In this document: positions 1 through 21,430 of the stretch, in pieces
Numbering within the stretch: position 1 is the stretch's first letter
Layout: every line of letters starts with the position of its first letter
IMG/VR virus record: IMGVR_UViG_3300009703_000131
Span: 1 to 21,430 of that record
Source: a virus
Reading direction: 5' to 3' (one strand)
DNA: 21,430 nt
Notes under the pieces: generated by a model
Databases searched by the model: none
The model's input: only the letters and a program-made list of their open reading frames with translations
What the model was told of the DNA's origin: nothing
Program-made: the position numbers and the translations under genes

Positions 1-263
1 GAAATAACAAGATGTGATGCATCAGAAGCGCCTGTATTAGTGCTAATTGATGAAATAGTATATTCCGTGGACGCGCTTCCTGTAACAAAGAAGGTGTCAC
101 CAGCAGCCCAGTTAGCATGACCATTACCATCAAGGTCGGTCAGCTCAAACGATGAAAGAGCTATTGTTGTTGCGGTACCAGCATGGTTACCGGAAAAACC
201 AGCTGTGGAGGTGTCAGAGGCACCTACGAGATTATCATTAAAGTTGTTGGTCCATTTTGGCAT
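1..263 (-). CDS. Partial protein of unknown function, possibly a virion protein (5' part only)
   Basis: Reading leftward from ATG at 263-261, the frame stays open for 87 codons and leaves the window at base 1, so only the N-terminus is visible. It starts MPKWTNNFNDN and continues rich in Ser, Thr, Gly, Ala and Asn with few charged residues, a composition common in phage fibre or decoration proteins. I see no catalytic motif or signal peptide. The start is supported by a TAAATA late-promoter element on the minus strand at 272-277, 8 nt upstream, the same layout as other genes here. It follows the 297-725 gene on the same strand. The existence of the gene is fairly certain; the structural role is only a guess from composition. 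Confidence 0.6.
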   Translation of the reverse strand, partial: MPKWTNNFNDNLVGASDTSTAGFSGNHAGTATTIALSSFELTDLDGNGHANWAAGDTFFVTGSASTEYTISSISTNTGASDASHLVI

Positions 264-271
264 ATCACTAA

Positions 272-277
272 TATTTA
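272..277 (-). promoter_or_regulatory. T4-late-like promoter element (TAAATA) for the partial gene at 263
   Basis: Minus strand reads ACTAAATATTAGTG, with the start codon 8 nt after the TAAATA core. It matches the element found before most genes in this window. Confidence 0.55.
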
Positions 278-296
278 GTCTCTAGAGTTCGGTTTT

Positions 297-725
297 TTAA
301 TCGTCATCATTAGAAATTAGATATCCTTTTAAGGATTGTTCCAATGCGCTAAGGTCTTGAGCAATTCTTGTAATCTTCTTAGTCTCACTGCGCGACACGT
401 CGTTAAACATAGTATCACAGTCAGCATCAGCTAATTGTCGTTGGATTGACCCTTCAGTACCATTGAGAAACTCGACAAATTCACCAACTCTACCAACCCA
501 ACTTTCAATTGTACCTCTTTGTGCGGTGTTTTGGTCTTTTCTCCAGCTAACACCTGGATTGTCTTGTACGTCATCGATAGCATCCATTGTGCCTGAGCTA
601 ACATCATCAGATGCTGCATCGATTGGCGCCGGTGCTTCAGGAGCATCACTTACCGCAGGTACATCTAAATCGGTAATTTCCGGCTCCTCTAGTAAAACTC
701 TAAATTGCTTCTCAAAATAGTTCAT
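297..725 (-). CDS. Acidic phage protein of unknown function
   Basis: A 142-residue protein beginning MNYFEKQFRVLLEE. Residues 15-60 are rich in Asp, Ala and Pro and look disordered. Residues 60-142 are more helical, with a WVGRVGEFVEFL segment (about 76-87) and an acidic tail ending NDDD. I do not recognise the family. Small acidic proteins of this type in T4-like phages are often core, scaffold or minor virion components, but that is inference. A strong late-promoter element lies 9 nt upstream of the ATG, and 55 bp separate it from the divergent gene at 781. Two other reading frames across this interval are shadows without their own promoter. Confidence 0.7.
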   Translation of the reverse strand: MNYFEKQFRVLLEEPEITDLDVPAVSDAPEAPAPIDAASDDVSSGTMDAIDDVQDNPGVSWRKDQNTAQRGTIESWVGRVGEFVEFLNGTEGSIQRQLADADCDTMFNDVSRSETKKITRIAQDLSALEQSLKGYLISNDDD

Positions 726-734
726 AGATGTAAT

Positions 735-740
735 TATTTA
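735..740 (-). promoter_or_regulatory. T4-late-like promoter for the 297-725 gene
   Basis: Minus strand ACAATAAATAATTACATCT then ATG; the core is 9 nt from the start codon. Its AATAAATAATTAC string is also found before the tail sheath gene, which makes a shared promoter convincing. Confidence 0.7.
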
Positions 741-765
741 TTGTAGTTGAACAGCTTTTCAGCAA

Positions 766-771
766 TAAATA
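766..771 (+). promoter_or_regulatory. T4-late-like promoter for the 781 gene
   Basis: Plus strand GCAATAAATACTTGTAAGC then ATG at 781, with 9 nt between core and start codon and no Shine-Dalgarno. It is divergent from the minus-strand promoter at 735-740. Confidence 0.65.
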
Positions 772-780
772 CTTGTAAGC

Positions 781-1185
781 ATGCCAGAAAAGAAAAATAA
801 ATTAGTTCTCGAAGATTTGACAGCATTTCAAGATAAATGGGCTTCTGGTATGTCAGGTCGCGCAGTTGGGCCTCGCCAATTAACGTTGTTAGATTTATTA
901 GGTCGGTCTGATAAAGATCACCAGCACCCTAACAATGTACAAGTTCAAGGTCCAGACATATATGGATCTCAATTAATGGAAGAACTCTTAGGAGACCTCT
1001 TTATACAAGCGCAAAAAGTAAAGGACGCGTTACGTACTGCTCAAAAAAGCCCGGTTATTCAAGACAGACGTTCGGCTCAAGCTCAAATAGCCAAGATTAT
1101 TAAAAAAGCTGGTATTATACAAAAGCTTGTATCGTCAATGGGTACTGATGTTGGTGATTTCAGAGTTGAAAAACCAGAAAAGTAG
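781..1185 (+). CDS. Conserved-looking phage protein of unknown function
   Basis: A 134-residue, charged, mainly helical protein starting MPEKKNKLVLEDL. It has no membrane segment, signal peptide or cysteine motif. The C-terminal half (about 60-120) is basic and helical, with repeated Ala-Gln-Lys segments that could form a coiled coil. I do not recognise it. It heads a plus-strand block of five small genes (781-2621) and has a late-promoter element 9 nt before the ATG. The next gene begins 14 nt after its stop. Late expression suggests a role in particle assembly or lysis, but nothing in the protein confirms this. Confidence 0.65.
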   Translation: MPEKKNKLVLEDLTAFQDKWASGMSGRAVGPRQLTLLDLLGRSDKDHQHPNNVQVQGPDIYGSQLMEELLGDLFIQAQKVKDALRTAQKSPVIQDRRSAQAQIAKIIKKAGIIQKLVSSMGTDVGDFRVEKPEK

Positions 1186-1192
1186 TATAATA
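1186..1192 (+). promoter_or_regulatory. Possible variant late promoter before the GTG start at 1200
   Basis: The TATAATA string lies 7 nt before the GTG, directly after the TAG stop of the preceding gene. It resembles the TATAAATA/TAAATA element but is not an exact match. Confidence 0.35.
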
Positions 1193-1199
1193 TTATAGA

Positions 1200-2292: not shown

Positions 2293-2621
2293 TGCATTAC
2301 ATTATTGGCACAGAAATTTTGATCCCAGAGCAACGTGCAATGGGAAACTCAGGTATTCAACCGGTAAACTCAACTCAAGTACAAAAAAGGAATAAAGGTA
2401 TTGGCCCATTCCAACCAGGCGTTCATTATCGGCTGTATAATATTCGTGTAAACCGTGATACAAACAAATTACAGTATACATTCGAGTGTAGCCATGGTGA
2501 GCCGTTGATCGTACCATTCGAAAGTGTTGAAGAGGCTGAGAAATATATTTCAGCAGCACGAGGTGAATCGTTACCTAGGAAAGATCAGGTATCTATTAAT
2601 AACGATACACGTATGATTTAA
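2292..2621 (+). CDS. Phage protein of unknown function
   Basis: A 109-residue protein starting MHYIIGTEILIPEQ. Residues 35-85 have a beta-rich pattern (HYRLYNIRVNRDTNKLQYTF, then a CSHGEPLIVPF segment) followed by a helix, which suggests a small alpha/beta domain. One Cys-x-His pair is present but no full metal site. The start overlaps the previous stop (TAATG), and the stop overlaps by 4 nt the stop of the convergent neck gene on the other strand. There is therefore no room for a terminator between the convergent units. The function is unknown. Confidence 0.65.
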   Translation: MHYIIGTEILIPEQRAMGNSGIQPVNSTQVQKRNKGIGPFQPGVHYRLYNIRVNRDTNKLQYTFECSHGEPLIVPFESVEEAEKYISAARGESLPRKDQVSINNDTRMI

Positions 2622-3340
2622 TAATAGTCGCCGTATACGTCGTCGCCATCATTAACATCTGTATAATCGAATGTTTTCTTAGCTTCTGTGTCGATATCAT
2701 CAACAATCTTTTTAGTTTCTGTTTGAGGATTAGTGTATCCTGAAAGCCTTCCAGAGAAGCTGTTGTCATATACTTGATCAGAAACTTTTTCAGCAGTTAA
2801 TCCTGGCTCGAATGTGTAGTCTAAACGTTTAGCTTTAACTTGCCAAACGTAATGACCGGCTAATGGGTTAATTGCATCAACTTGTTGATCTAAACGTTCA
2901 GTAATTTCAAATGACTTACCGCCTCTGTCTCCAGGCCTGTCGTCGCCGTATTCAGTTAGTGTAAATATGTCGCCTGACTTAGGTTCTGTAACTTGTTCTC
3001 CTGCAACTGATAAAGAACTCATAGTTGTCGAGAATGTAGATATGGATAACCACCCAGTTATATCATCATCCCCTTGTAATCCAAACTTAGACAGTAAAAT
3101 TGAACCTTCATTCAATGTAAGTAGCATAACCGTTTTAATAGCGTTGTGATAACTACCAGTTGGGTGCTCACCGTATACCATATCATGACCTGAAGTAGAG
3201 TAATTATATACAAAGTATTCAACTTCTTGACCGTATAGGTTTATCTGCTCTTTATAATAACCGTCAAAGTTAGACCGTTCATTAGAGTTATTGCCTTTAT
3301 CGGTAAACCTAAACGTTTCATTTGTATAGTACGGTTTCAT
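2618..3340 (-). CDS. gp14: Neck protein, T4 gp14-like head-tail connector component
   Basis: A 240-residue protein. T4 gp14-type neck proteins help to seal the portal vertex and join head to tail. Features recalling that family are, in order: LYGQEVEYF (35-43), where gp14 proteins have an IYGxDVxY motif; a YGEHPTGSY segment near 57-65, like their GEDP-type motif; LLSKFGLQ near 83-90, like their LFSKFGLE; a PKSGDIFTL segment near 119-127 and a following FEIT strand; and a YVWQVKAKRLDYTFEPGL strand pair near 164-181. The C-terminus is acidic and ends in tyrosines. The length is near the usual size of gp14 (about 250). The start overlaps the upstream nucleotidyltransferase stop (TAATG), so the two genes are co-expressed. 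The assignment rests on remembered family patterns, not on a search. Confidence 0.6.
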   Translation of the reverse strand: MKPYYTNETFRFTDKGNNSNERSNFDGYYKEQINLYGQEVEYFVYNYSTSGHDMVYGEHPTGSYHNAIKTVMLLTLNEGSILLSKFGLQGDDDITGWLSISTFSTTMSSLSVAGEQVTEPKSGDIFTLTEYGDDRPGDRGGKSFEITERLDQQVDAINPLAGHYVWQVKAKRLDYTFEPGLTAEKVSDQVYDNSFSGRLSGYTNPQTETKKIVDDIDTEAKKTFDYTDVNDGDDVYGDYY

Positions 3341-4488: not shown

Positions 4489-4494
4489 TATTTA
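4489..4494 (-). promoter_or_regulatory. T4-late-like promoter for the nucleotidyltransferase/neck unit
   Basis: Minus strand CATAAATATAAGTAGAA then ATG; the core is 9 nt from the start. The CATAAATA octamer differs from T4 TATAAATA by one base. It begins right after the T-run of the preceding terminator. Confidence 0.7.
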
Positions 4495-4496
4495 TG

Positions 4497-4527
4497 AAAA
4501 AAATCCCCTGCTACCACGCAGCAGGGG
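4497..4527 (-). terminator. Intrinsic terminator after the small membrane-protein gene
   Basis: The arms CCCCTGCT (4505-4512) and AGCAGGGG (4520-4527) form an 8-bp perfect stem with a 7-nt loop. On the minus strand the stem is followed by A and then seven Ts. It terminates transcription from the 4553-4741 gene just before the next promoter. Confidence 0.85.
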
Positions 4528-4552
4528 GGTGACAATAATGTTTTATAAAAGA

Positions 4553-4749: not shown

Positions 4750-4755
4750 TATTTA
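4750..4755 (-). promoter_or_regulatory. T4-late-like promoter for the small membrane-protein gene
   Basis: Minus strand GACTAAATAATTATGCT then ATG, spacing 8 nt. The first three bases of the core are the TAA stop codon of the lysine-dehydrogenase-like gene (4753-4755). Confidence 0.65.
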
Positions 4756-5838
4756 GTCTTTTAAGAGACTATTTAATATATTATTGAAGTCTGTATATGG
4801 CACATCAGAATACCCAAGAGCCATTGGTAATTTAATGTCACCGCCCCTGTTTTGCTTAATTCTCTTATCGAATACCTTCGTTCCCATAAGAGATCCTACT
4901 GTACTTATGGAAAACGCTGTAGCTTTTTGCATCGCAGAAAATTTATCACAGCTACGTACGATTTTTTCGTAAGTTCTAGTAGTATCCCCCGCAGTAACGT
5001 CTGATCTTAATATAACTAGGTCAGAATCGTTCTTGTCCCCGGAGCAACCGGTTTCGAAAACCTTTTTCATAGTGTCAGAATCTAATTTACAATCGTTATG
5101 TAGAAATTTAACAATGTCAATGTGACCTGGATATCTAAATGTCTTATAAGAACAGTTTTTAACGCCACGATTCTTCATACTCATTAATGTATGCGACACT
5201 CCACCTGATGTATAAAAGGCTTCCAGTTCACCTAACCCTGTATTTACATTTACAAGGCCTGACATACCCTTAACAGTAACTAATTTACCACCTCTTAGTA
5301 CCAAACAATCATCAACATATTCATTGATCAATCCATCTATTGACCATGTTACCATATAATTCATTACATTACGTTTTACTACAGGTAACCCACCGACGTA
5401 CATGTTAATGTTATCTATATTAGATAGCCCACACGCTAAATGTTCCGTAACAATGTTAATCCATCCAGGAGCAAGGCCTAGATCTGTAAATACCGGTGCT
5501 GTTGCCTTCTCTTTTGCAAATTGATTAATTTCTTCAGATACATCAACTCGCCCACCAAGGTCGCAGTACCGTATATTGTTTGTTATACAATATTTGGCAA
5601 CAGGTAGCAATTGATGATAAGGTAAACTGCATACAACGATATCTGGGTCTGTGTCTCGAAGCAATTTCTTAAACGACTTGTCGGATTTCAAATGTACAAA
5701 CGTATAGTCTTTAACAAGACCCTTAAGTTTGTATTCTGCAGGAACTACATCGGCACATATAAGTTTATATCCAAGTTTATTCATTGCATATGCAATGCAT
5801 TGACCCATCCTACCTAATCCAAATACGACAGCTTTCAT
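4753..5838 (-). CDS. Lysine 6-dehydrogenase-like enzyme (saccharopine dehydrogenase family)
   Basis: A 361-residue NAD(P)-dependent oxidoreductase. A Rossmann GxGxxG (G7-L-G9-R-M-G12) is followed by D30 at the end of strand 2, which favours NAD. Family landmarks follow: CDLGG (92-96), DLGLAPGWIN (119-128), YVGGLPV (147-153), LEAFYTSGG (205-213) and YKTFRYPGH (231-239). They fit lysine 6-dehydrogenase, which oxidises the epsilon-amino group of lysine to allysine (2-aminoadipate semialdehyde, cyclising to piperideine-6-carboxylate), better than the longer saccharopine reductases. Relatives such as carboxynorspermidine dehydrogenase remain possible. I prefer ATG at 5838 over a TTG six bases upstream because it lies 10 nt from a late-promoter core and starts directly at the MKAVVFG strand. 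An aldehyde dehydrogenase that could take the product lies just upstream. Confidence 0.75.
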   Translation of the reverse strand: MKAVVFGLGRMGQCIAYAMNKLGYKLICADVVPAEYKLKGLVKDYTFVHLKSDKSFKKLLRDTDPDIVVCSLPYHQLLPVAKYCITNNIRYCDLGGRVDVSEEINQFAKEKATAPVFTDLGLAPGWINIVTEHLACGLSNIDNINMYVGGLPVVKRNVMNYMVTWSIDGLINEYVDDCLVLRGGKLVTVKGMSGLVNVNTGLGELEAFYTSGGVSHTLMSMKNRGVKNCSYKTFRYPGHIDIVKFLHNDCKLDSDTMKKVFETGCSGDKNDSDLVILRSDVTAGDTTRTYEKIVRSCDKFSAMQKATAFSISTVGSLMGTKVFDKRIKQNRGGDIKLPMALGYSDVPYTDFNNILNSLLKD

Positions 5839-5847
5839 TATCAATTT

Positions 5848-7368
5848 TTATTTAGACATACCTTGAGGAAATGCTATATCTTCTCCATGGTTAACAGTCC
5901 ATGACATTGTATGAGTTACAGCTTGCCAGGTTTTAGCTGCAGACGGAAAGCCATTACCGCTCTTCTTTACTCCTCCAAACGATAAGTGGCTTTCCGCTGC
6001 AATGGATCCTCCATTCCAGTAACACATACCAGTATCGCAGTTATCTCTACAGTAACGTGCAATGCGGTAATTGTTAGTTAGAATGCCAACTGCCAATCCA
6101 TACTCTGTATCATTATAAATTCTTACCCCATCCTCTACAGTATCAAACGGTATTAATGCAACGTGAGGACCAAACACTTCATTTCTAAGATAAGGAGCAT
6201 CACACCCGCGCCATTCAACCTTATATACCGTTGGTGTAACATAATAAGTACCATTTTCGCCAGTATATTCCGGTGATAATAATACTTCAGCTTGAGTGTC
6301 TCTTAATACATGGTCATTATAACTTCGAACTTTTGCAAATCCTTGCTCATTAATAATAGGGCCGTAGTACATATCTTCATTTACTGACCCATCTTTATTA
6401 AACGGATTACCTGTCTTTATTTCTTTAGCTTTTGCAGCGAACTTCTCACAAAACTCATCATATACACTTCGCTGTACAATCATTCTACCAGATGATACAC
6501 AACGCTGACCAGATAACTTAAATGCACTAGCGATAGCTGCATCTACTGCCATATCGATATCAGCATCATCAAAAACAATACAGGCAGATTTACTACCCAT
6601 TTCACAACTAGTTGTTTTATGCCAGCTTTCAGCAGCTACTTTACGAATTAACTGACCTACTTCAGCACTACCGGTAAAGCAAATATGATCCACACCGGCT
6701 CTACAAAGCCAGTCACCTGTTTCACCTTTACCGTGAACAACATTCATAACACCAGCTGGTAAGCCTGCATCATGATAAATCTGCATTGCCAGATGTGTAG
6801 ATAATGGAGCATCTTCCGAAGGTTTAACGACAACTGTATTGCCTTCAACTAACGCCGGTGCTGCGTTCCAAAACATTCCAATAGCTAGCGGGAAATTAAA
6901 CGGAGTAACAATTGCAATAACACCTTTTGGTTTGCGAACCATATATGAATCTTTTTCTGGTAGTTCAGATGATACAATATCACCTGTTGGTGTCCTTCCC
7001 GAACCAAAAGCAAATTGAGCCATGTGTAAAGCTTCGTTTACTTCAGCAATAGATTCGTTATAGTTCTTGCCTGTTTCTTTAGAAATAGCAGTTGCGAGAG
7101 AAACCTTACGCTGTTCAACAAGTGTTGCAACATTATTAAGTATTTCTGCTCGTTCAAGCCTACTCTTTGATTTCCATTCTGTAAAAGCAACTTTTGCACA
7201 ATTAACTGCTACTAATACTTCGTCTTGTGTCGACAACGGAAATGTACCTAACACTTCCCCAGTAGCAGGGTTAATATTGTTGTATTCTTCAGTTGTGAAA
7301 TCCGCTCCCTCAACGCCAATACGGTGATGAATGAATTCTCCGTTTATGTAATTTCCGTAATCTGTCAT
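5848..7368 (-). CDS. NAD(P)-dependent aldehyde dehydrogenase
   Basis: A 506-residue full-length ALDH-superfamily enzyme that oxidises aldehydes to carboxylates. All key residues are present: oxyanion N158 in TPFNFP, cofactor-binding K182 in VVKPSE, GSAEVG at 233-238, general base E256, nucleophile C290 in SGQRCVSSGR, and E397 in NEVFGP. One oddity is CEMGSK at 255-260, where most family members have ELGGK; the catalytic Glu is kept. Next to a lysine 6-dehydrogenase-like gene, the likely substrate is 2-aminoadipate semialdehyde, giving 2-aminoadipate, but the motifs alone do not fix the substrate and succinate- or betaine-type aldehydes are possible. The ATG overlaps the stop of the upstream VOC gene (ATGA), and the next gene starts 9 nt after its stop, so the three are one operon. 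Confidence 0.93.
   Translation of the reverse strand: MTDYGNYINGEFIHHRIGVEGADFTTEEYNNINPATGEVLGTFPLSTQDEVLVAVNCAKVAFTEWKSKSRLERAEILNNVATLVEQRKVSLATAISKETGKNYNESIAEVNEALHMAQFAFGSGRTPTGDIVSSELPEKDSYMVRKPKGVIAIVTPFNFPLAIGMFWNAAPALVEGNTVVVKPSEDAPLSTHLAMQIYHDAGLPAGVMNVVHGKGETGDWLCRAGVDHICFTGSAEVGQLIRKVAAESWHKTTSCEMGSKSACIVFDDADIDMAVDAAIASAFKLSGQRCVSSGRMIVQRSVYDEFCEKFAAKAKEIKTGNPFNKDGSVNEDMYYGPIINEQGFAKVRSYNDHVLRDTQAEVLLSPEYTGENGTYYVTPTVYKVEWRGCDAPYLRNEVFGPHVALIPFDTVEDGVRIYNDTEYGLAVGILTNNYRIARYCRDNCDTGMCYWNGGSIAAESHLSFGGVKKSGNGFPSAAKTWQAVTHTMSWTVNHGEDIAFPQGMSK
5849..5854 (-). promoter_or_regulatory. T4-late-like promoter before the lysine-dehydrogenase-like gene
   Basis: Minus strand TCTAAATAAAAATTGATA then ATG at 5838; the core is 10 nt upstream. 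It lies inside the last codons of the ALDH gene, whose TAA stop overlaps it. It could give the third cassette gene extra late transcription. Confidence 0.5.
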
Positions 7369-7922
7369 GATAATTCTTTTGTACTGTTCATTAAATCTTT
7401 AACATTATCTTCACAAAAACCGTCACCTTCTCGCGAGATTAATTCGTAGATAACACCGGTTAGTTCAGAAGGTTTTGTGAATACTTGAATAAGGCCCGGG
7501 CATGTCATAGGCTCTTCAGAAAGGAACTCGGCATATCCTTTTTCTTTCCATTCGTTCATAGTTTGTGCCACATTATCACACTGATAAGCAATATGATGAA
7601 TGCCGCCCACCCCGCCGCGAGCAGCAACCCAATCACCAACAATAGATCCCACAGGACCATCACTAACAAAGATTTCACACGGTGCATGTAATGAAATATC
7701 TTCCTCTTCATAATCTTCTAAACATAAAGTTGTAAATTGAGACCATTCTTTAGTTTCTCTTGGTCGCTTTTCTGGTGGAACCAAAGCTAAGCAGTCTGCT
7801 TTTGAGCCGTCATCGAATTCTATTTGAAATTCCGTACCAATGGTATATCCTAAAGCCGCTTTTAAGAATTCAGCTGTCTTATATCTGTCTTTAACTCTAT
7901 ACGCGATATGATCCAGTCTCAT
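7365..7922 (-). CDS. VOC-superfamily (glyoxalase/dioxygenase fold) metalloenzyme
   Basis: A 185-residue protein with the vicinal-oxygen-chelate pattern. LDHIAYRV opens module one (metal ligand H5). GGIHHIAYQC at 106-115 opens module two (ligand H109 or H110), and GVIYELI at 156-162 supplies the terminal Glu (E160). VOC enzymes include methylmalonyl-CoA epimerases, glyoxalases and hydroxyphenylpyruvate-type dioxygenases. The length is above single epimerases (about 140) and below full dioxygenases (350 or more), so the reaction cannot be named. A Cys-rich C-terminus (GDGFCEDNVKDLM) follows. It is the first gene of the operon with ALDH and the lysine-dehydrogenase-like enzyme, so it may act on an intermediate or side product of that path. 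No clear TAAATA precedes its ATG; TAATATATCTTA directly before it may be a variant. Confidence 0.8.
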   Translation of the reverse strand: MRLDHIAYRVKDRYKTAEFLKAALGYTIGTEFQIEFDDGSKADCLALVPPEKRPRETKEWSQFTTLCLEDYEEEDISLHAPCEIFVSDGPVGSIVGDWVAARGGVGGIHHIAYQCDNVAQTMNEWKEKGYAEFLSEEPMTCPGLIQVFTKPSELTGVIYELISREGDGFCEDNVKDLMNSTKELS

Positions 7923-7956
7923 TAAGATATATTAGCTTCATGCGCCGCAAAATCAA

Positions 7957-7962
7957 TAAATA
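7957..7962 (+). promoter_or_regulatory. T4-late-like promoter for the metallothionein-like gene
   Basis: Plus strand TCAATAAATATAAGT then ATG at 7968, with only 5 nt between core and start codon. It lies in the 45-bp gap between divergent genes. Confidence 0.65.
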
Positions 7963-7967: not shown

Positions 7968-8132
7968 ATGAGCCAAGATACAGAATGTACATGTAATTGT
8001 GGACCTACTCCAGGTCCATGGGGTCCAGGTCAGGGATGCTGTGATTGTAAATGTCAGCATTGTAAGCACTGCAGCGAAGATTGCGCTTGTGAGTGTCACG
8101 ATGAAGACTCGAAAGATAGTAAATGTTTATAA
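7968..8132 (+). CDS. Metallothionein-like cysteine-rich mini-protein
   Basis: A 54-residue protein. It has 13 cysteines (7, 9, 11, 24, 25, 27, 29, 32, 35, 39, 41, 43, 53) and histidines at 31, 34 and 44. The order is a CTCNC cluster, a Gly/Pro/Trp hinge (GPTPGPWGPGQG, 12-23), the dense cluster CCDCKCQHCKHC (24-35), then CACECH (39-44) and an acidic/Lys tail ending KCL. Repeated Cys-x-Cys and Cys-x-x-Cys spacings are the hallmark of metallothioneins, which bind Zn, Cu or Cd as thiolate clusters. It is not obviously colinear with cyanobacterial SmtA. The late promoter 5 nt upstream and the neighbouring 8145 gene, with its own promoter overlapping this stop, support a real gene. Metal buffering or delivery late in infection is inference; a redox or structural role is also possible. 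Confidence 0.72.
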   Translation: MSQDTECTCNCGPTPGPWGPGQGCCDCKCQHCKHCSEDCACECHDEDSKDSKCL

Positions 8133-8133: not shown

Positions 8134-8139
8134 TAAATA
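8134..8139 (+). promoter_or_regulatory. T4-late-like promoter (tandem TAAATA) for the 8145 gene
   Basis: Plus strand TATAAATAAATATAGAT then ATG at 8145. Two overlapping TAAATA cores lie at 8130-8135 and 8134-8139; the first is a full T4-like TATAAATA octamer (8128-8135) and begins with the upstream gene's TAA stop. Spacing from the second core to ATG is 5 nt. Confidence 0.7.
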
Positions 8140-8637: not shown

Positions 8638-8791
8638 CTTTTGATTTCTTTTCTGCCTCTAGTATACGCTCACGCCATGCATTTTTCAACTTCTCAGGCG
8701 TTTTATCTGCGTTTGATGCTTTGGTGTCTTTTTTAATTTCACCAGAAAAGAACTCTAAAAGAGCAGCAAACAATTGTTTAAGCCATAACAT
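8606..8791 (-). CDS. Small amphipathic or membrane-associated protein, possible lysis partner
   Basis: A 61-residue protein starting MLWLKQLFAALLEFFSGE. A hydrophobic N-terminal helix (1-17) is followed by a highly charged Lys/Glu/Asp-rich tail. The helix is shorter than a standard membrane span and holds a Lys and a Glu, so a peripheral or amphipathic membrane helix is as likely as a true span. It heads a two-gene unit with the overlapping lipoprotein and has its own promoter directly after a terminator. An i-spanin or pinholin-like role is possible, but it is short for an i-spanin and the identity is unproven. Confidence 0.6.
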   Translation of the reverse strand: MLWLKQLFAALLEFFSGEIKKDTKASNADKTPEKLKNAWRERILEAEKKSKDESNKDSSTD

Positions 8792-8796: not shown

Positions 8797-8802
8797 TATT
8801 TA
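8797..8802 (-). promoter_or_regulatory. T4-late-like promoter for the 8791/8637 gene pair
   Basis: Minus strand TTATTAAATAATCAT then ATG at 8791, spacing 5 nt. It follows immediately after the T-run of the terminator at 8805-8831. Confidence 0.65.
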
Positions 8803-9364: not shown

Positions 9365-9679
9365 TGTAGAATTATTTATTTTGCTGGCCTCATTTTTTAC
9401 AGCCTTTTTACTACTTTTTACCGGGTGCGATAAATTTTCTTCATTATACGCTGATTTACCTTTCTTATCTTTTTTGGTATCATTCTCAACGTCTTCGACT
9501 CCTTCAGCAGCTTCAGGTCCCGAATCTTTAATCATTTTATGGCCAGCATCTTTGCTGAACGCACCATTATCAGCTTTGGCGTCCACCGCAACGTTCTCGT
9601 TTAATTGTGACTGTTCCGGTTTTTCGCTAATGTTATCGGAGTATATGTCTCCTAAATCTTCAAAATACTTGCTAGACAT
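8858..9679 (-). CDS. Highly acidic protein, possible scaffold/core or virion protein, with internal start
   Basis: A 273-residue frame. Residues 1-105 are charged and Lys/Glu/Asn-rich (MSSKYFEDLGDIYSDN). From M106 a second module begins (MKEKSNQTSFDKLFEDVMGG). It contains a long Asp/Gly/Met-rich acidic run (124-155), an amphipathic helix (157-176, RLESLIGELQGILDELRG), another acidic run (177-200) and a tail with two copies of a motif, DSVGHLTGKNNK (211-222) and DAVAHMTGKGNK (250-261). No enzyme fold is apparent. The composition and position next to terminase would suit a prohead core or scaffold protein, which is inference. A canonical late promoter and ATG lie inside the frame at 9373/9364, so a 168-residue product is likely in addition to, or instead of, the long form. 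The base composition of the acidic part is much richer in GC than its surroundings. Confidence 0.65.
   Translation of the reverse strand: MSSKYFEDLGDIYSDNISEKPEQSQLNENVAVDAKADNGAFSKDAGHKMIKDSGPEAAEGVEDVENDTKKDKKGKSAYNEENLSHPVKSSKKAVKNEASKINNSTMKEKSNQTSFDKLFEDVMGGDLDLDLGNDMDMGGDDMDLNGDEDMGEGGDVAGRLESLIGELQGILDELRGGEDEDMGDIEDIEDTEGEDDLEMPESHVELQAAPDSVGHLTGKNNKAALSTDGGSASSDAGGQEDGGKPKAAKDAVAHMTGKGNKVGNVKGGNAFSH
9373..9378 (-). promoter_or_regulatory. Internal T4-late-like promoter within the acidic-protein gene
   Basis: Minus strand AAATAAATAATTCTACA then ATG at 9364; the TAAATAATT string matches the sheath and tube promoters and the spacing is 8 nt. It is read in frame as Lys-Ile-Asn-Asn, avoiding the stop codons its other frames contain. 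Confidence 0.6.
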
Positions 9680-9680: not shown

Positions 9681-9686
9681 TAAATA
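9681..9686 (+). promoter_or_regulatory. Probable late promoter for the terminase, in a divergent 30-bp gap
   Basis: The plus strand TAAATACTTATTAATATT lies between the divergent starts at 9679 and 9710, so a 23-nt distance to the terminase ATG leaves room for a short leader. The minus strand reads AATATTAATAAGTATTTAC then ATG, with no exact TAAATA, so the minus-strand promoter is a weak variant or lies elsewhere. Confidence 0.45.
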
Positions 9687-9709: not shown

Positions 9710-11452
9710 ATGAACAATCAGTCAGATAAAAATTACTATCTAGGCAACAAAAAGTTACCCAAATCTACAGCTGAGTTCGATTGGACACCGAAAATGGTGA
9801 ACGAACTTAAGAAATGTAAGAGGAATATATTATTTTTTGCTGAGAATTTCTTTTATATTGTGAACCTAGACCGCGGTAAAGAGAAAATTAAACTATTCAA
9901 ATGCCAAAAACGCGTATTACGTAGTTTACGAGATCATAGATTCGTAGCACTACTAGCATCCCGTCAGATTGGTAAAACCACGTTAATGACAATATATTGT
10001 CTGTGGATTGCATGTTTTGAAGACGATCAACGTATCCTTATTGTAGCTAACAAAGAGCAGACAGCCAAGAACATATTCAAAAGAGTGCGGCTAGCTTATG
10101 AGATGTTACCAAACTATCTTAAACCCGGTGTTGTTGAATATGGTCAAACGTCACTAGTGCTATCAAACGGCTCTAGTATTGGTATATCCACTACATCGTC
10201 AGATGCAGGTCGTGGTGATTCCTGTAATGTGTTGGTATTGGATGAGCTTGCATTTATTGACAATCATTTAGTTGACCCCTTTTGGAAATCGGTATTCCCT
10301 ATTATCTCATCTTCAAAAAAATCTAAAATCTTTATCGCTAGTACCCCTAATGGCTCCGATAATTTGTTTCACAAATTATACACTAATGCTGATAAAGGTG
10401 TATCTAATTGGAAAGCAGAGCGCGTAGATTGGTGGGAAATACCCGGTCGCGATGAAGCATGGAAAGACGATACTATTAAAGCCCTTGGTTCAATGGAAGC
10501 ATTTAATCAAGAATTTGGAAATGTGTTTATACAAACAGGCGAGTCAGCTATTGACGACGCTCTCTTTGACCAATTAAAACAAGAATGTTCAGAACCTGAG
10601 TATGTGTTTGATGAAGGTTCCTATTTGTTGTGGGAAGAACCAAAACAGGACCACATATATACAGTGGGTGTTGATGTGGCGGAAGGTATTGGTGACAACG
10701 CGTCTGTAGCACAAATATTAGATATAACGGATTTGACTAATATAAAACAGGTAGCTGTTTATCATAATAATAAGATATCCCCATATAACTTTACTACTAA
10801 ATTAAAAGAAATTCTTCAACATTGGGGATCACCACCTGTAGCAATTGAAAGAAACAACTGTGGTGCACAGGTTGTCGATAATTTACATAATTTACACTCC
10901 TATTATAATATGGTTAACTTTGCACCTAATAGTACTACCAAAAGGAGTTATGATACTCGTTTAGGGGTCACTGCTCATACTAATACCAAATATAAAGGTG
11001 TAATAAACATGCGATATTGGATCAACCAATTAAATGTTATCCGATTCAAAGATGTACGTACATTAAACGAATTGAAATCATTCGTAAGGTATCCAAATGG
11101 TACTTGGTCTGCAAGAAAAGAAGCGCAGGTATTTGATGATAGGGTTATGAGTTTAATTTGGTCCTTAATTTCCCTTGAAGGTACAATTACTGAAAAATAC
11201 TATGATATTGTGAAGCGAGATGATAACGGTAAACCGCTAATCATTAAAAGCATGGATTACGGTATTAAAGAATTCGTTAATCCGCTTTCAATGTACAGTA
11301 ATGAAAAGGAAGTTGGATTAAATAATCCAAACCCAGTTGTGTTCGGTACTAATGAGGCAGTCGATGATGACATATCACAATTAGAACAGATGGGATGGGT
11401 TATGATGGGTGATAAACCTGATGCAGGAGACAATACATGGCTGACAACTTAA
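9710..11452 (+). CDS. terL: Terminase large subunit (T4 gp17-like)
   Basis: A 580-residue DNA-packaging motor that threads DNA through the portal using ATP and cuts concatemers. The N-terminal ATPase has Walker A SRQIGKTT (84-91), of the gp17 SRQxGKT type; Walker B LVLDE with D178 and catalytic E179; and the coupling motif STPNG (211-215). The C-terminal RNase-H-like nuclease has the acidic triad D322 (VGVDVAEG), E380 (AIERNN) and D476/D477 (FDDRVM). The length is near that of gp17 (610). No small terminase is visible nearby. The start ATG has no Shine-Dalgarno. The last 16 nt overlap the next gene, so translation is probably coupled. Confidence 0.96.
   Translation: MNNQSDKNYYLGNKKLPKSTAEFDWTPKMVNELKKCKRNILFFAENFFYIVNLDRGKEKIKLFKCQKRVLRSLRDHRFVALLASRQIGKTTLMTIYCLWIACFEDDQRILIVANKEQTAKNIFKRVRLAYEMLPNYLKPGVVEYGQTSLVLSNGSSIGISTTSSDAGRGDSCNVLVLDELAFIDNHLVDPFWKSVFPIISSSKKSKIFIASTPNGSDNLFHKLYTNADKGVSNWKAERVDWWEIPGRDEAWKDDTIKALGSMEAFNQEFGNVFIQTGESAIDDALFDQLKQECSEPEYVFDEGSYLLWEEPKQDHIYTVGVDVAEGIGDNASVAQILDITDLTNIKQVAVYHNNKISPYNFTTKLKEILQHWGSPPVAIERNNCGAQVVDNLHNLHSYYNMVNFAPNSTTKRSYDTRLGVTAHTNTKYKGVINMRYWINQLNVIRFKDVRTLNELKSFVRYPNGTWSARKEAQVFDDRVMSLIWSLISLEGTITEKYYDIVKRDDNGKPLIIKSMDYGIKEFVNPLSMYSNEKEVGLNNPNPVVFGTNEAVDDDISQLEQMGWVMMGDKPDAGDNTWLTT
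11426..11431 (+). promoter_or_regulatory. Shine-Dalgarno supporting the 11437 start
   Basis: AGGAGA lies just upstream of ATG 11437, inside the terminase gene. It is the clearest Shine-Dalgarno I see in the window and contrasts with the promoter-proximal genes, which have none. Confidence 0.6.
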
Positions 11453-12117: not shown

Positions 12118-12123
12118 TAAATA
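12118..12123 (+). promoter_or_regulatory. T4-late-like promoter for the tail sheath gene
   Basis: Plus strand ACAATAAATAATTACGACT then ATG at 12133, 9 nt from core to start and no Shine-Dalgarno. The ACAATAAATAATTAC string is identical to that of the 725 minus-strand promoter. Confidence 0.75.
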
Positions 12124-12132
12124 ATTACGACT

Positions 12133-14592
12133 ATGGCACTTAAAAATATTTCATCACCAGGCGTACAAATTAGCGAAGTAGACGCAACAGGCGGCGCTTC
12201 GTTTGCAGGCGGAACAAGCGTTCTCATCCCGGGCTTTGCATCACAAGGACCGGTAGACGAGGTATTCGCAGTTGGCAGTATGGGCGAATTTGAGCTTATC
12301 TATGGTAAGCCAACAAACTCTGCAGAACGTTACTTTTATCAAACAGCGAAAGCGGTATTCAATAGCGCTTCAACAGTATTAACCACTCGCTTACCATATG
12401 GCTCCGGTAGCGGTCTTGGCGTATCAGATAAGTATACTGCTCTATTCTATCCTGTTTTCCCATATCGCTCAACCGATGGTGCTAATGTTGGTGGCTCTAA
12501 TGAAACAGTTAATATGAGCGTTTCTGGTGGCGCTGCAGGTACAGCTGGTATATCACTTTCAAGTAATGGTGTAAGTACATATTTGCTTGGTAAGCCACAA
12601 TTAGTCGAACTTACAAGAACACAATACCAAGATTTGCAACAAGGCAACTATACTTGGTCTGATAGTGTTAGATTTAACTACAAATTCACATCAGACAGCT
12701 CTACATGGGGCCAAGCTGGTATGATTGTAACAAATACCTCAAGAACAGCCATTAATGACAAGTATGAAGGTTACTACGTAGCAATTGCTGACAATACTCA
12801 GCTTAACCCTGCTACTAACTTCACATCTGTTAAGAAGCATTTCACAGTAAATGAGCAAAGCCAAGACTTAACATTGGAAGTGCCAGTTGCTCGTAGAAAC
12901 TTCACGCTATCCGGAACACCGACAAGTAATGATGACAGTGTTTCAGAAGTATTAGAAGGTATTGCCTCGTTTGACATTTCCGGCAACGAGTTCAAAGACA
13001 CTTTAACACTTGGCTTATTCAAGCTTAAGACATCCATCTTTAGTACAGACGTTCTCAAGTTAGATTATGTTCTTGCTGAAAGCTACCTCGGTTCGCTTGA
13101 TGCATGGCGTAAATTGCAGAACCCAGCCGGTGGTAACCCATTAACATTCTTCTTAGGTGATGTCGAAGACGGTTCACCAAACATTGAAGTGTTTGTTAAC
13201 CAGCACCTTTCGTATTCCACAGGAACATGGATGGATAGCGCTGGTAATACACCGCTCAAGTCTGTAAGAGTTTTAACTGATCAGTTATATACTGACTCTA
13301 GCAACGTCTCATTGTCCGGTAACGGCGGAGTATCTAAAGCTGCTTTAGATGACCTTCGCAGACAAACAAATAACTGGGGCGGAGGATCCGTTGGGTTTAC
13401 AACAGATACAACATCTGTTAGTGGTGCTGATGCATTAATTCCGCTCGGTACATATCAGAAATCTAACCCAACTACAAAAGAAATTGGTAGTGTACCTGAG
13501 AAGTTGGAAAGATTGTTCAGAACAATTGATAATGTTGACCTTGTTAACATTGACATTAGTGTTGAAGCGGGACTAGGAACCATTTACACTGGTGCTCAAT
13601 GGAATCAGACTTACGGTCCTGCGAACTTCCGCGGAGATACATTTGACGATGAAATCACAGTTAATATTGGTGCCATTGATCACGACAATGACGACAATAC
13701 AACAGGATTCTATCAGATTAGTGACGATGCAGAGTTTGCTGCTGAACAGTTAGCGATTAGAGACAATTACAGAGCAGTCTTTAATAAGTTTGACGATTTC
13801 GCACAATTTAATAGAAAAGACCACTTGCATATTGCAGATGCTCCAAGATATCTGTTCGTGCAAGGTATTAACCAGAAAATAATGGAAGACAAGCGTAATA
13901 CATTTACGCAAGCAGTCTACTGGCCACTCCGTCATGTTTACGGTCACGCCAATTCGAGTTACTCGACAGTATTCGGTAACTGGGGTAAGTGCTACGAGAG
14001 TAGTACTGATAAGATGATGTGGTGTCCGTTCTCTGGTTATGCTGCAGGGGCAATGTCCAATAACGATGCGTCGTTTGGACCATGGTATGCACCAGCTGGA
14101 TTTACTAGAGGTAGATTCGGTGGTCTAATTGATTTGGCGGTCATACCGTCACAAAAACACAGGGATCAATTATATCGGATTAATGTTAACCCGGTAACAC
14201 AGTTCCCAGGAGAAGGAATGGTAATCTTCGGTCAGAAGACATTCTTTAGAAAGCCGAGTGCGTTTGATAGACTTAATGTACGTAGGTTGTTCTTGTACCT
14301 CGAGAAGATGGTTCGCAACATTATGAAATATTATGTGTTCGAGCCTAACACCTTGCTAACAAGAACGGCAGTACTTAACGAGTTAACGCCACGGTTTGAA
14401 AACATCAGGGTCAATCAAGGTATGTATGACTTCTTGATCGTCTGCGACGACAGAAACAATACACCTACTACGATTGATGCCAATGAGTTGGTGGTTGACA
14501 TTTACGTCAAACCAGTTCGTGCCGCTGAGATCATATTGGTTAACTTCTACGCAACTAGAACTGGCCAGGACTTTAGCGAAATCGTTAGTTAA
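12133..14592 (+). CDS. gp18: Contractile tail sheath protein (T4 gp18-like)
   Basis: An 819-residue main sheath protein; copies polymerise around the tube and contract to drive it through the envelope. The N-terminus ISSPGVQISEVD (5-16), then TSVLIPGFASQGPVDE and a segment matching FELIYGKP, is the standard sheath opening. The C-terminal region (about 640-819) holds the conserved core, including GRFGGLIDLAVIPSQK, a RLNVRRLFLYLEK helix, and a final VVDIYVKPVRAAEIILVNF strand pair used in subunit handshakes. The middle (about 100-560) is variable and probably forms surface-exposed insertions. It is about 160 residues longer than T4 gp18 (659). It has its own late promoter, and the tube gene follows 19 nt later, as in T4. 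Confidence 0.95.
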   Translation: MALKNISSPGVQISEVDATGGASFAGGTSVLIPGFASQGPVDEVFAVGSMGEFELIYGKPTNSAERYFYQTAKAVFNSASTVLTTRLPYGSGSGLGVSDKYTALFYPVFPYRSTDGANVGGSNETVNMSVSGGAAGTAGISLSSNGVSTYLLGKPQLVELTRTQYQDLQQGNYTWSDSVRFNYKFTSDSSTWGQAGMIVTNTSRTAINDKYEGYYVAIADNTQLNPATNFTSVKKHFTVNEQSQDLTLEVPVARRNFTLSGTPTSNDDSVSEVLEGIASFDISGNEFKDTLTLGLFKLKTSIFSTDVLKLDYVLAESYLGSLDAWRKLQNPAGGNPLTFFLGDVEDGSPNIEVFVNQHLSYSTGTWMDSAGNTPLKSVRVLTDQLYTDSSNVSLSGNGGVSKAALDDLRRQTNNWGGGSVGFTTDTTSVSGADALIPLGTYQKSNPTTKEIGSVPEKLERLFRTIDNVDLVNIDISVEAGLGTIYTGAQWNQTYGPANFRGDTFDDEITVNIGAIDHDNDDNTTGFYQISDDAEFAAEQLAIRDNYRAVFNKFDDFAQFNRKDHLHIADAPRYLFVQGINQKIMEDKRNTFTQAVYWPLRHVYGHANSSYSTVFGNWGKCYESSTDKMMWCPFSGYAAGAMSNNDASFGPWYAPAGFTRGRFGGLIDLAVIPSQKHRDQLYRINVNPVTQFPGEGMVIFGQKTFFRKPSAFDRLNVRRLFLYLEKMVRNIMKYYVFEPNTLLTRTAVLNELTPRFENIRVNQGMYDFLIVCDDRNNTPTTIDANELVVDIYVKPVRAAEIILVNFYATRTGQDFSEIVS

Positions 14593-14595: not shown

Positions 14596-14601
14596 TAAAT
14601 A
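14596..14601 (+). promoter_or_regulatory. T4-late-like promoter for the tail tube gene
   Basis: Plus strand CATTAAATAATTACAAGTT then ATG at 14612, spacing 10 nt. It fills the 19-bp gap between sheath stop and tube start. Confidence 0.7.
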
Positions 14602-14611
14602 ATTACAAGTT

Positions 14612-15176: not shown

Positions 15177-15206
15177 TTATCCGGTAACCTTAGGGTTATC
15201 GGATAA
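15177..15206 (+). terminator. Hairpin after the tail tube gene, overlapping the next promoter
   Basis: The arms TTATCCGGTAACC (15177-15189) and GGTTATCGGATAA (15194-15206) pair over 13 bp with one G-T pair and a TTAG loop. No long T-run follows (ATATTTTAT only), so it is a weak terminator or an mRNA-stabilising 3' hairpin for the tube transcript. Its right arm runs into the TAAATA core of the next gene. Confidence 0.6.
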
Positions 15207-15209
15207 ATA
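15204..15209 (+). promoter_or_regulatory. T4-late-like promoter for the baseplate tube gene
   Basis: Plus strand GGATAAATATTTTAT then ATG at 15216, spacing 6 nt. The first bases are part of the hairpin stem at 15177-15206. Confidence 0.6.
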
Positions 15210-16979: not shown

Positions 16980-16985
16980 TAAATA
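16980..16985 (+). promoter_or_regulatory. T4-late-like promoter for the GTG-started 16992 gene
   Basis: Plus strand AGTAAATATACTAT then GTG at 16992, spacing 6 nt. An ATG at 16990 overlaps the GTG but is followed at once by TGA, so GTG is the real start. Confidence 0.6.
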
Positions 16986-16991
16986 TACTAT

Positions 16992-17930: not shown

Positions 17931-17936
17931 TAAATA
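17931..17936 (+). promoter_or_regulatory. T4-late-like promoter for the 17943 gene
   Basis: Plus strand CGTAAATAGTTTTA then ATG at 17943, spacing 6 nt, in the 30-bp gap after the preceding stop. Confidence 0.6.
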
Positions 17937-18830: not shown

Positions 18831-18841
18831 GTATTTTCACT

Positions 18842-18847
18842 TAAATA
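18842..18847 (+). promoter_or_regulatory. T4-late-like promoter for the putative tape measure gene
   Basis: Plus strand CTTAAATATTTGTAGAG, 18 nt before the ATG at 18866, one of the longer leaders in the window. A small inverted repeat (TTTAAGT 18826-18832, ACTTAAA 18839-18845) overlaps it and the preceding stop. Confidence 0.5.
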
Positions 18848-18865
18848 TTTGTAGAGTAATCCGGT

Positions 18866-21430
18866 ATGGCGAAAGATGCTAAACAACAAGCCGAAGAACT
18901 CGTCAACCAAAATAATCTGTTAATTAATAAGCTTCTAGGTAAGTTTAGTGATTTTTTTACTGGCGAGGCTAAGGAGAAGAAGCAGGAGAGGGCTGTTGCT
19001 AAAGGTGCAGCACCTGAACGTGCGTCTTTTCGTCAAACTTCATATACTGTTCAAACCGGTATCAAGCGCGGCTCAACAATTGTAGGTCCTGGTGTATTCT
19101 GGGACAAGCTATTCGCAAAGTTAGCACCTGGTGATGATGGAGAGGATCCAATACCTAAAAAATTACCACCATGGTGGAAAGATTTGCTAGGTCCAGCATT
19201 ATTAATTTTAGGTGGATTAGCTGCTTTTATAAAAGGCATCATGACCGATGGACCTCTCAAAGGATTTTTAGCTTTATTAGCTAAAGGAGGTATAATGGGA
19301 GGTCTCCAACTATTATCAAAAGTCTTAGGTAGAGCTGTAGGTGCAGCTGTTCGAGGTCTCGGGGCAGTTTTTGGAGATGACGCTGTAAAAGGTGTACTAC
19401 AATCGCTGCGGTCAAAAGTTGGAGCAATTTTTAAGCCAGTAAGTAGATTCTTTTTGAGTACGCTGCCTAAATTTTTTATTCGATTAATCGCACCTGCGCT
19501 TAAATTGGTAGGTATCGGTGGTAAAGATATCTTTAAGGTTGTTCTTAGATCGCTCGGATTTATTGCTAAGAACTTACGGTTCATACCGTTTATTGGTGCG
19601 CTTATAAGTTGGGCATTTGCATATAGTAGATTTAAGTCAGGAGACGTTATTGGTGGTGCAATTGATTTAGTAGCTGGGTTTACTTCATTCCTACCACCAC
19701 CTATCGGTATACCGCTAAGTATTGGTTTGGGAATTTTGAATGCTGTTCTTGATGCGAAATCTGGAGGAGCAACTGGTAAACAACAACAAGCAAAAGGCGA
19801 CATGCTAAAGCGTTGGGGTAAAAAGATATTTGAGCTCGCTGCCAGTGTACCGCCAATTAGCAATGTATATCATTTAGCTAACGCTATTATACAAGGCGTT
19901 AGCGGTAACTGGAAAGCCGCGGCTAATCATTTCATGTGGTCTATACCACTTGTAGGAGATGTTCTTAGATGGTTTGATATTGGCGGATTCAAGACCGAAA
20001 CTGGTGAGCCTATAAGAGGCGATAAAAATACATTCTGGGCTAGATTCAAATCATTTATATACGGTATGTCTCCAATTGCTCAGCTAGTCGGTGTGTATAA
20101 AGGTATAAAATATGCCCTTCAAGGCCAATGGAAGCTTGCTGCGACATCTCTTGTATATGGTATACCATTTGTAAGCACAGTTATAGATTGGTTCGGAGGT
20201 CCCTCTACTGCTGAAGAGGCGGTAGAAGATATGGGAAATAAAAACGGGTTCTTCCAAACCATTAAAAATTATATGTTAGAGTCGTTCCCTATAAAGAACC
20301 TCGTGCAGTTTGTAACTGGTGTTAAAAGCGTTTTAACAGGAGACGTTGCTAAAGGTTTTCTCGACATGGGATATGCATTACCGTTGTTTAGTTCAATATC
20401 TAGTTGGTTAGGAGGCCCTGCTTCTGGAGATGAAGCAAAAGAGACATTAGGTGATAAAACTAGCTTCTGGTCTAGAGTAAAACAGCTTGTATATGGTATG
20501 TCGCCCATAAGTTGGATTATAGGCATAGGAAAGGGTATAAAATATGCCGTACAAGGTAAATGGCAATTAGCGGGTTCGTCGCTCGTATATGGTATACCGA
20601 TGTTAAGTACTGTTATTGCTTGGCTTGGAGGGCCCGCAACAGCTGAAGAAGCGGTAGAAGATATTGGTAATAAAGACGGCTTTTTCCAAAGTATAAAGAA
20701 TTATATACTTGGAATGTACCCCGTTAGAAATTTCGTACAATTTGGTGCAGGTATTAGAAAAATAATAGGCGGTCAAATTATGTCCGGTCTAACAGACGCA
20801 GCTTATGCCATTCCATTGCTTGGCAAAATTGCAGGGTGGTTAGGCGGACCTGAAACAGCTGAAGAAGCGCAAGCTGATCTTGGAACTAAAAACGGTTTCT
20901 TTAACAGCATCAAAAATTGGATAATGGAAAGATATCCAGTTAAAAACCTTTTACAGTTTGGACAAGGTATAGGTCAGATATTTGGTGGCGAATTTATAGG
21001 TGGCTTATCTAACATGGCTTATTCCGTACCATTCTTTGGATCGCTTGTTTCATTCTTCGGAGGGCCCGAAACAGCTCAAGAAGCGCAGCAACAAATTGCA
21101 ACAAACGGTTCTGGATTTTTCAAATCGTTCAAGCATAGGGCTTTGAGAAAGGTACTTGGATGGGTACCTAAATCGGTACTTGGCGTATCTGTTAGGAGTA
21201 GAGTAGCTAAGATCTTAGGCATTAACATGAATGAGCCTATTCAAGATGATAATATCGCCGGCGAAGCAGATAAAACAGCTAAGACAATTGATACATCTAG
21301 CAGCTCATTAAATAAAGCAAGTCAGAATATATCTAAATCAACTAAGAAGATTGAAGACGCTTCAGCCGGCTTTGGTAAATCAAGTCCCGGTGTCTGGGAA
21401 TATCTAGACTCCGCAAGCGAACAAATAAGC
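18866..21430 (+). CDS. Putative tail tape measure protein with tandem repeats (3' end beyond the window)
   Basis: The frame is open from ATG 18866 through the last base, 855 codons with no stop, so the C-terminus is missing. Residues 1-55 are charged and coiled-coil-like (MAKDAKQQAEELVNQNN). Residues 100-310 contain several hydrophobic, Gly/Ala/Leu-rich segments that could span membranes. Residues 316-750 are six tandem repeats of 72-74 residues, each with a Phe/Trp-rich start, a short G-x-W or G-x-(I/V/F) turn, an IP or LP hydrophobic stretch and a W-x-GGP linker into an acidic helix (EEAxxDxGxK). After 751 comes a basic segment, then a Ser/Lys/Asp-rich helix-like region. Length, hydrophobic helices and a place after tube and hub genes fit a tape measure protein that sets tail length; there is no peptidase motif in the visible part. 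Another large virion protein is possible. Confidence 0.6.
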   Translation, partial: MAKDAKQQAEELVNQNNLLINKLLGKFSDFFTGEAKEKKQERAVAKGAAPERASFRQTSYTVQTGIKRGSTIVGPGVFWDKLFAKLAPGDDGEDPIPKKLPPWWKDLLGPALLILGGLAAFIKGIMTDGPLKGFLALLAKGGIMGGLQLLSKVLGRAVGAAVRGLGAVFGDDAVKGVLQSLRSKVGAIFKPVSRFFLSTLPKFFIRLIAPALKLVGIGGKDIFKVVLRSLGFIAKNLRFIPFIGALISWAFAYSRFKSGDVIGGAIDLVAGFTSFLPPPIGIPLSIGLGILNAVLDAKSGGATGKQQQAKGDMLKRWGKKIFELAASVPPISNVYHLANAIIQGVSGNWKAAANHFMWSIPLVGDVLRWFDIGGFKTETGEPIRGDKNTFWARFKSFIYGMSPIAQLVGVYKGIKYALQGQWKLAATSLVYGIPFVSTVIDWFGGPSTAEEAVEDMGNKNGFFQTIKNYMLESFPIKNLVQFVTGVKSVLTGDVAKGFLDMGYALPLFSSISSWLGGPASGDEAKETLGDKTSFWSRVKQLVYGMSPISWIIGIGKGIKYAVQGKWQLAGSSLVYGIPMLSTVIAWLGGPATAEEAVEDIGNKDGFFQSIKNYILGMYPVRNFVQFGAGIRKIIGGQIMSGLTDAAYAIPLLGKIAGWLGGPETAEEAQADLGTKNGFFNSIKNWIMERYPVKNLLQFGQGIGQIFGGEFIGGLSNMAYSVPFFGSLVSFFGGPETAQEAQQQIATNGSGFFKSFKHRALRKVLGWVPKSVLGVSVRSRVAKILGINMNEPIQDDNIAGEADKTAKTIDTSSSSLNKASQNISKSTKKIEDASAGFGKSSPGVWEYLDSASEQIS
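19811..21115 (+). repeat. Tandem 72-74-codon repeats in the putative tape measure gene
   Basis: Six units in frame: 19811-20032 (degenerate, 74 codons), 20033-20248, 20249-20464, 20465-20680, 20681-20896 (each exactly 72 codons, 216 bp) and 20897-21115 (73 codons). Units 2 and 4 of the array start FW-x-R-x-K and contain YGMSPI and GIKYA; units 3, 5 and 6 start FF-x-x-IKN and contain a P-(I/V)-(K/R)-N motif. The linker WxGGP-x-(T/S)-x-x-EA is shared by the last five units. Alternation suggests duplication of a two-unit block. Confidence 0.85.

Follow-up and report, generated by a model that had tools for sequence, protein, structure and literature searches.

Late promoters that abut start codons predict leaderless or near-leaderless late mRNAs in a clade of T4-superfamily phages

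INTRODUCTION

In the textbook account of late transcription in bacteriophage T4, leaders bearing a Shine-Dalgarno (SD) sequence are taken for granted. The T4 late core, TATAAATA, spans positions -13 to -6 (PMC1524935, PMC2988020), so that the sixth base past the last A of TAAATA is +1. In T4, KVP40, S-PM2, and Syn9, late promoters of this type mostly lie 12 to 45 nucleotides (nt) before the start codon, with an SD sequence in most T4 cases. Here we analyze a fragment of 21,430 bp (positions 1 to 21,430 of virus record IMGVR_UViG_3300009703_000131; hereafter, the window), in which putative late promoters share with the known ones the TAAATA core, the absence of a -35 element, the position before virion genes, a gp55 homolog (in relatives), and a preference for A six nt downstream of the core. 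Unlike those of T4, KVP40, S-PM2, and Syn9, they stand 5 to 10 nt from the start codon and lack SD sequences. The best explanation, which we consider highly probable, is that these are T4-type late promoters whose +1 would fall on the start codon or 1 to 5 nt before it, so that the late mRNAs would be leaderless or nearly so. That they are leaderless is strongly inferred rather than demonstrated.

Leaderless phage mRNAs are already known. In the Thermus phage phiYS40, most middle and late mRNAs are leaderless (Sevostyanova et al. 2007, as cited in PMC3594737), a precedent for a phage program built on such mRNAs, which a first-pass annotation of this DNA had called unusual. As far as that secondary account goes, the window clade resembles phiYS40 in expressing a class of phage genes from (here predicted) leaderless mRNA and differs in belonging to the T4 superfamily, in using gp55-type promoters, and in having early sigma70-type transcripts that are apparently leaderless too. 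A T4-superfamily system with gp55-type promoters is thus a new variant; no report of leaderless late genes in T4-like phages was found in the literature searched, an incomplete search. A -10 box beside the start codon is generally taken to indicate a leaderless gene (PMC3160421; for Deinococcus-Thermus, PMC12340547), and in Lactococcus cremoris leaders shorter than 5 nt form a class apart from the normal leaders of ~40 nt (PMC10986495). Like the TA-led leaderless genes of the first two studies, genes of the window and its relatives have a TA-type -10-like signal ~10 to 12 bp before the start codon and no SD sequence; unlike those cellular genes, which use host sigma factors, they follow, within one viral genome, two sigma grammars, one of host type and one of the phage.

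RESULTS

TAAATA stands just upstream of late-gene starts

The window holds late genes of an uncultured phage of the T4 superfamily. It encodes homologs of gp17, gp18, gp19, and baseplate proteins, the mark of a T4-superfamily myovirus: the terminase large subunit (9710), the tail sheath (12133), tail tube paralogs (11437 and 14612), and baseplate-hub-like (16992) and T4-baseplate-like (17943) proteins, together with a head-closure Hc2-like protein (2618-3340). With the gap defined as the number of nucleotides between the end of TAAATA and the start codon, and with starts taken from a simple gene caller, TAAATA was found at gaps of 5 to 10 before 14 of 26 gene starts (Table 1). Circular shifts of the motif positions (21,330) placed at most 3 starts, and on average 0.09, in this range. 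Of the other hexamers with equal base composition, none approached the count of TAAATA except those overlapping it. Over its full length, the window has no excess of the motif (26 observed versus 33 expected). The first-pass annotation had allowed that the motif might prove no commoner before starts than elsewhere, and the shifts refute this; all the gaps that it gave are correct on the sequence, including the exceptions 9710 (gap 23) and 18866 (gap 18). As in T4-type late promoters, a core resembling TATAAATA precedes the late genes.

A terminase query gathered 52 loci of relatives and a sheath query gathered 20; these overlap in part, and duplicates were taken out. Longer contigs were retrieved for four relatives, G001 (105 kb), G003 (112 kb), G004 (225 kb), and G005 (204 kb), and T4, KVP40, S-PM2, and Syn9 were processed in the same way as comparators. 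TAAATA was enriched 17-fold within the first 30 nt upstream of 922 distinct open reading frame (ORF) starts of the relatives, with 130 sites at gap 5, 60 at gap 6, and few beyond gap 11. The distribution of distances, which the first-pass annotation had proposed to plot over the whole genome, has in the relatives a sharp peak at 5. Anchored on starts, the peak in G004 had P = 5e-52 by a simple Poisson test that assumes independence. When ATG codons after TAAATA were counted without gene calling, gap 5 again exceeded background in G001 (30 versus 4), in G004 (42 versus 3.3), and in the terminase loci (135 versus 13), and the peak in G003 was at gap 6. The comparators had 22 to 40 sites at gaps of 12 to 45, and at gaps of 5 to 11 there were 1 in T4, 2 in KVP40, 0 in S-PM2, and 3 in Syn9. 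In a terminase tree, a quick one with some long branches, a fully supported split set the window clade apart from these four phages, and most members of the clade had short gaps.

The predicted RNA start falls on or beside the start codon

With the core placed as in T4, +1 coincides with the A of ATG when the gap is 5. If RNA starts six nt past TAAATA, as in T4, the +1 A would either open the start codon or lie 1 to 5 nt ahead of it. Base preferences in the relatives are consistent with this geometry. At offset 6 after TAAATA, the base was A in 70% of sites and followed a pyrimidine in 72%, also where the start codon was 7 to 11 nt away, and at gap 5 the base preceding ATG was C or T in 91%. 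The start codons enriched at gaps 5 and 6 were ATG and, slightly, GTG, and not TTG or CTG; ATG at gap 5 occurred 253 times in the relatives versus a background of 36. Codon-position constraint (positions 1 and 2 conserved, position 3 freer) began at codon 2 after the proposed ATG, which makes this ATG very likely the true start. In the arrangement that we propose, most late units would carry their own gp55-type promoter, TAAATA-WTWAY-A, and translation would proceed without SD contact, through recognition of an AUG at the predicted 5' end.

Short-gap genes lack SD sequences and leave little room upstream

SD motifs were present at 0 of 11 short-gap ATG genes in the window versus 3 of 9 genes without TAAATA. 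The first-pass annotation had said that the short-gap genes have no clear SD sequence and that genes 11437 and 1596 do, and this was borne out: SD-like sequences precede 11437 (AGGAG) and 1596 (GAGG). Among short-gap genes, SD sequences were found in 0% in the window, 3% in G001, 9% in G003, 0% in G004, and 0% in G005, in keeping with the SD-free leaderless genes of PMC3160421, and the energy of pairing with the anti-SD was near that of shuffled sequence. Of the T4 genes whose TAAATA lies at 14 to 40 nt, 77% carried an SD sequence.

Intrinsic terminators ended 0 to 8 nt before TAAATA in 28 family cases, in 26 of which the start gap was 5, 6, or 9. In the comparators, except for the Pelagibacter (SAR11) phage HTVC008M, terminator-adjacent TAAATA sites had gaps of 22 to 42. 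The window contains two such terminator-promoter units, one at 4479 and one, recognized by eye on the sequence, at 8791. Relatives also have divergent start codons 13 to 30 bp apart; a palindromic TAAATATTTA often lies between them and acts in both directions, as in L020, where the layout reads CAT-GTAAATATTTATACTAAT-ATG. Short-gap TAAATA was nearly absent from overlapping genes internal to units (0 of 38 in G001, 1 of 36 in G003, 1 of 56 in G004, and 2 of 49 in G005), whereas it preceded 13 to 57% of the other positional gene classes. This near-absence indicates a promoter and not a ribosome signal, and TAAATA as a translation signal was rejected on this ground.

Host-type promoters abut starts at their own offset

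Is the layout confined to late promoters? Host-type -10 boxes occupy positions -12 to -7, so a gap of 6 would put +1 on the start codon. TATAAT clustered before clade gene starts at a gap of exactly 6. Where a TTGA -35 element preceded it, in most cases by 16 bp, TATAAT stood at gap 6 in 60 family genes, at gap 5 in 22, at gap 7 in 12, and at most other gaps in ~1 to 10; at gaps of 5 to 7, T4, S-PM2, and Syn9 had none and KVP40 had three. A strict count at gap 6 without gene calling gave 12 versus 1.2 expected from background in G001, 4 versus 0.6 in G003, and 11 versus 1.7 in G004. TATAAT is frequent in AT-rich DNA, which makes loose counts of the motif followed by ATG without gene calling weak evidence, and we relied on the anchored and stricter counts.

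The gap-6 sigma70 genes of the relatives include those for single-strand binding protein, primase, RNA ligase, helicase, and DNA polymerase, and the gp55 gene of G001 (L076 7500-7973) itself has this layout. Replication genes would thus be expressed through an arrangement equivalent to that of the late genes, and leaderless expression appears to be genome-wide in the clade. The first-pass annotation had limited the program to late genes; its late part stands, but sigma70 promoters also abut starts. That two grammars with differing offsets arrive at the same end point is the strongest internal check short of RNA. Early leaderless transcripts would imply efficient translation of such mRNA by the host at a time when no phage protein has yet been made. 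On balance, we lean toward a T4-superfamily clade that expresses both early and late genes from promoters with +1 at the start codon, through two sigma grammars, in hosts that favor leaderless mRNA.

Relatives encode gp55 homologs

Homologs of the late sigma factor gp55 (profile phrog_234) were detected in G001, G003, G004, and G005, with E values of 1e-24 to 1e-30, and two were rescanned. The clade homologs are short and diverged and end in acidic tails (L110 1459-1932, L112 1426-1908, and L113 1456-1938). Judged by its core, the class of genes it precedes, and its sigma factor, the clade system is a T4-type late promoter system.

A cultured phage carries both layouts

HTVC008M resembles the window clade in that 10 of its genes, most of them lacking SD sequences, have TAAATA at gap 5; the annotated gp2, gp4, tail tube cap, and baseplate genes are among these. 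The start codons of its annotated divergent gp2/gp4 pair are 26 bp apart, with two back-to-back TAAATA motifs between them, and its one terminator-adjacent TAAATA has a gap of 5. Unlike the clade, HTVC008M is mixed: other genes have TAAATA at gaps of 18 to 31 with strong SD sequences, and there is no clear sigma70 peak at gap 6. SD sequences were found at 17% of its 12 short-gap genes and at 8 of 8 genes with the motif at 14 to 40 nt. Ribosomal protein S21, considered as a modifier of initiation, occurs in HTVC008M (L218) and Melnitz (L219) and not in the clade contigs searched; we claim no link.

DISCUSSION

Alternative readings of the pattern

Could TAAATA-WTWAY instead be an A/U-rich leader element that recruits ribosomes or enhances translation, with transcription starting further upstream? 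Bacteria with weak SD use do have A/U-rich upstream regions, and the nonpromoter genes of G004 and G005 also show little SD. Yet overlapping unit-internal genes need translation too and go without the motif, which is identical to the core of T4 late promoters; the closeness of terminators and of divergent start codons allows hardly any upstream space, or none; the initiator A keeps its six-nt distance from the motif as the ATG shifts; and TATAAT with its TTGA -35 element behaves alike at its own correct offset. We therefore regard a leader element as very unlikely, and give the same low likelihood to an RNA polymerase that starts off the T4 offset, yielding short SD-less leaders, or to 5' ends produced by processing. 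The short, diverged gp55 homologs would allow such a shift; against it, the TAAATA (5) and TATAAT (6) peaks both fit known distances from -10 to +1, and the pyrimidine-A initiator sits at offset 6. Because the start codons are predictions, the promoters might also be real while translation begins at downstream in-frame codons with SD sequences of their own, so that the mRNAs would have leaders. We rate this slightly lower still, given purifying selection that acts on the first two codon positions from codon 2 after the first ATG onward, an enrichment at gap 5 that is specific to ATG, and the annotated HTVC008M starts at that gap. Chance or AT-rich intergenic composition would accord with a window in which TAAATA is not overrepresented overall, but it is an extremely improbable source of the pattern in view of the circular-shift and hexamer controls, the single-position peak in the relatives, and the lack of the short-gap pattern in T4 despite its lower GC content (35% versus 39% in the window).

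Several observations weigh against T4-type late promoters with +1 on or beside the start codon, the reading that we prefer. A zero-length leader is predicted for only three late-promoter genes of the window and leaders of 1 to 5 nt for the others; the leaderless late program of the first-pass annotation thus holds for the placement of +1 on or near the start codon and not, in most window genes, for a leader length of zero. The 21-kb window fragment contains no gp55 gene and just two sigma70 gap-6 candidates (1200 and 7922), and G005 showed no gap-6 sigma70 peak in the strict count without gene calling. The gp55 homologs of G001, G004, and G005 lack the C-terminal clamp-binding motif of T4 gp55, so promoter opening and start-site choice might differ. 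By profile (phrog_223), the gp45 sliding clamp was matched only in G002, G003, and G009; a search with Pfam PF02916 gave no match, controls included, and the PHROG model was used in its place. The search for gp55 and gp45 homologs that the first-pass annotation had called for was thus answered in four relatives for the sigma factor and only in these three contigs for the clamp.

The same core moved onto the start codon would constitute a natural experiment, a switch from SD-led to leaderless translation in a virus, and the clade predicts hosts that translate leaderless mRNA efficiently. The layout may also explain why late promoters are missed by promoter finders that expect a leader; in one study, an attempt to predict late promoters in pelagimyophages failed (PMC7029224). 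Since HTVC008M is cultured and has both layouts in one genome, the question is directly testable.

Further features of the window

The predicted signals of the window are collected in Table 1.

Table 1. Predicted transcription signals of the window and the terminase gene used as a query
Feature	Position	Strand	Gap (nt) and start codon	Predicted leader (nt)	Remarks
Late promoter core TAAATA	272..277	-	8, ATG 263	3	
Late promoter TAAATAATTAC	730..740	-	9, ATG 725	4	
Late promoter core	766..771	+	9, ATG 781	4	Divergent partner of 730-740
Sigma70-like promoter TTGAAA-N16-TAATAT	1166..1193	+	6, GTG 1200	0	Same in L004; alternative -10 TATAAT 2 nt earlier
Late promoter core	4489..4494	-	9, ATG 4479	4	1 nt past terminator T-tract
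Intrinsic terminator CCCCCTGCTGC GTG GTAGCAGGGGA, T7	4495..4530	-			Adjoins late promoter of 4479
Late promoter core	4750..4755	-	8, ATG 4741	3	
Late promoter core	5849..5854	-	10, ATG 5838	5	Overlaps aldehyde dehydrogenase stop codon
Sigma70-like promoter TTGATT-N16-TAATAT	7929..7956	-	6, ATG 7922		First metabolic-cassette gene
Late promoter core	7957..7962	+	5, ATG 7968	0	
Late promoter core	8134..8139	+	5, ATG 8145	0	Second overlapping copy at 8130 (gap 9)
Late promoter core	8797..8802	-	5, ATG 8791	0	Immediately after terminator AGCCCGGCCTTGAGCCGGGCT and T-tract
Late promoter core within ORF 8858-9679	9373..9378	-	8, in-frame ATG 9364	3	Internal; kept in L004
TAAATA	9681..9686	+	23, ATG 9710		Terminase; overlaps TAAGTATTTAC of divergent gene 9679
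Terminase large subunit (gp17-like)	9710..11452	+			Query for collecting relatives
Late promoter TAAATAATTAC	12118..12128	+	9, ATG 12133	4	Tail sheath
Late promoter TAAATAATTAC	14596..14606	+	10, ATG 14612	5	Tail tube
Late promoter core	15204..15209	+	6, ATG 15216	1	
Late promoter core	16980..16985	+	6, GTG 16992	1	Baseplate hub-like
Late promoter core	17931..17936	+	6, ATG 17943	1	T4 baseplate-like
Late promoter core	18842..18847	+	18, ATG 18866		Longer predicted leader

At the exceptional gene 9710, the divergent gene 9679 has the variant TAAGTATTTAC-ATG at gap 5, in a near-palindrome shared with the TAAATA of 9710. TAAGTA was also enriched ahead of starts in the relatives, and in many of them the counterpart of the terminase gene has a gap of 9 to 11. 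Within ORF 8858-9679, TAAATA and the in-frame ATG at 9364 suggest a nested, shorter late product. An Rfam scan of the window gave no match.

The tail sheath gene (12133-14592) encodes 819 amino acids (1,013 in G001), compared with 659 for T4 gp18 as calculated from annotated coordinates, and cultured phages match only its C-terminal part. The gene at 7968-8132, with a gap-5 promoter in front, encodes a cysteine-rich protein of 54 amino acids with no family match. On the minus strand, a three-gene metabolic cassette (4753-7922) encodes saccharopine-dehydrogenase-like, aldehyde dehydrogenase, and glyoxalase-family proteins. As a clue to the host, the aldehyde dehydrogenase gene gave only matches of 24 to 37%, in unrelated bacteria. 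The cassette looks like an auxiliary pathway of the lysine/aminoadipate type, with a predicted sigma70-like leaderless promoter ahead of 7922 and a late promoter ahead of its final gene.

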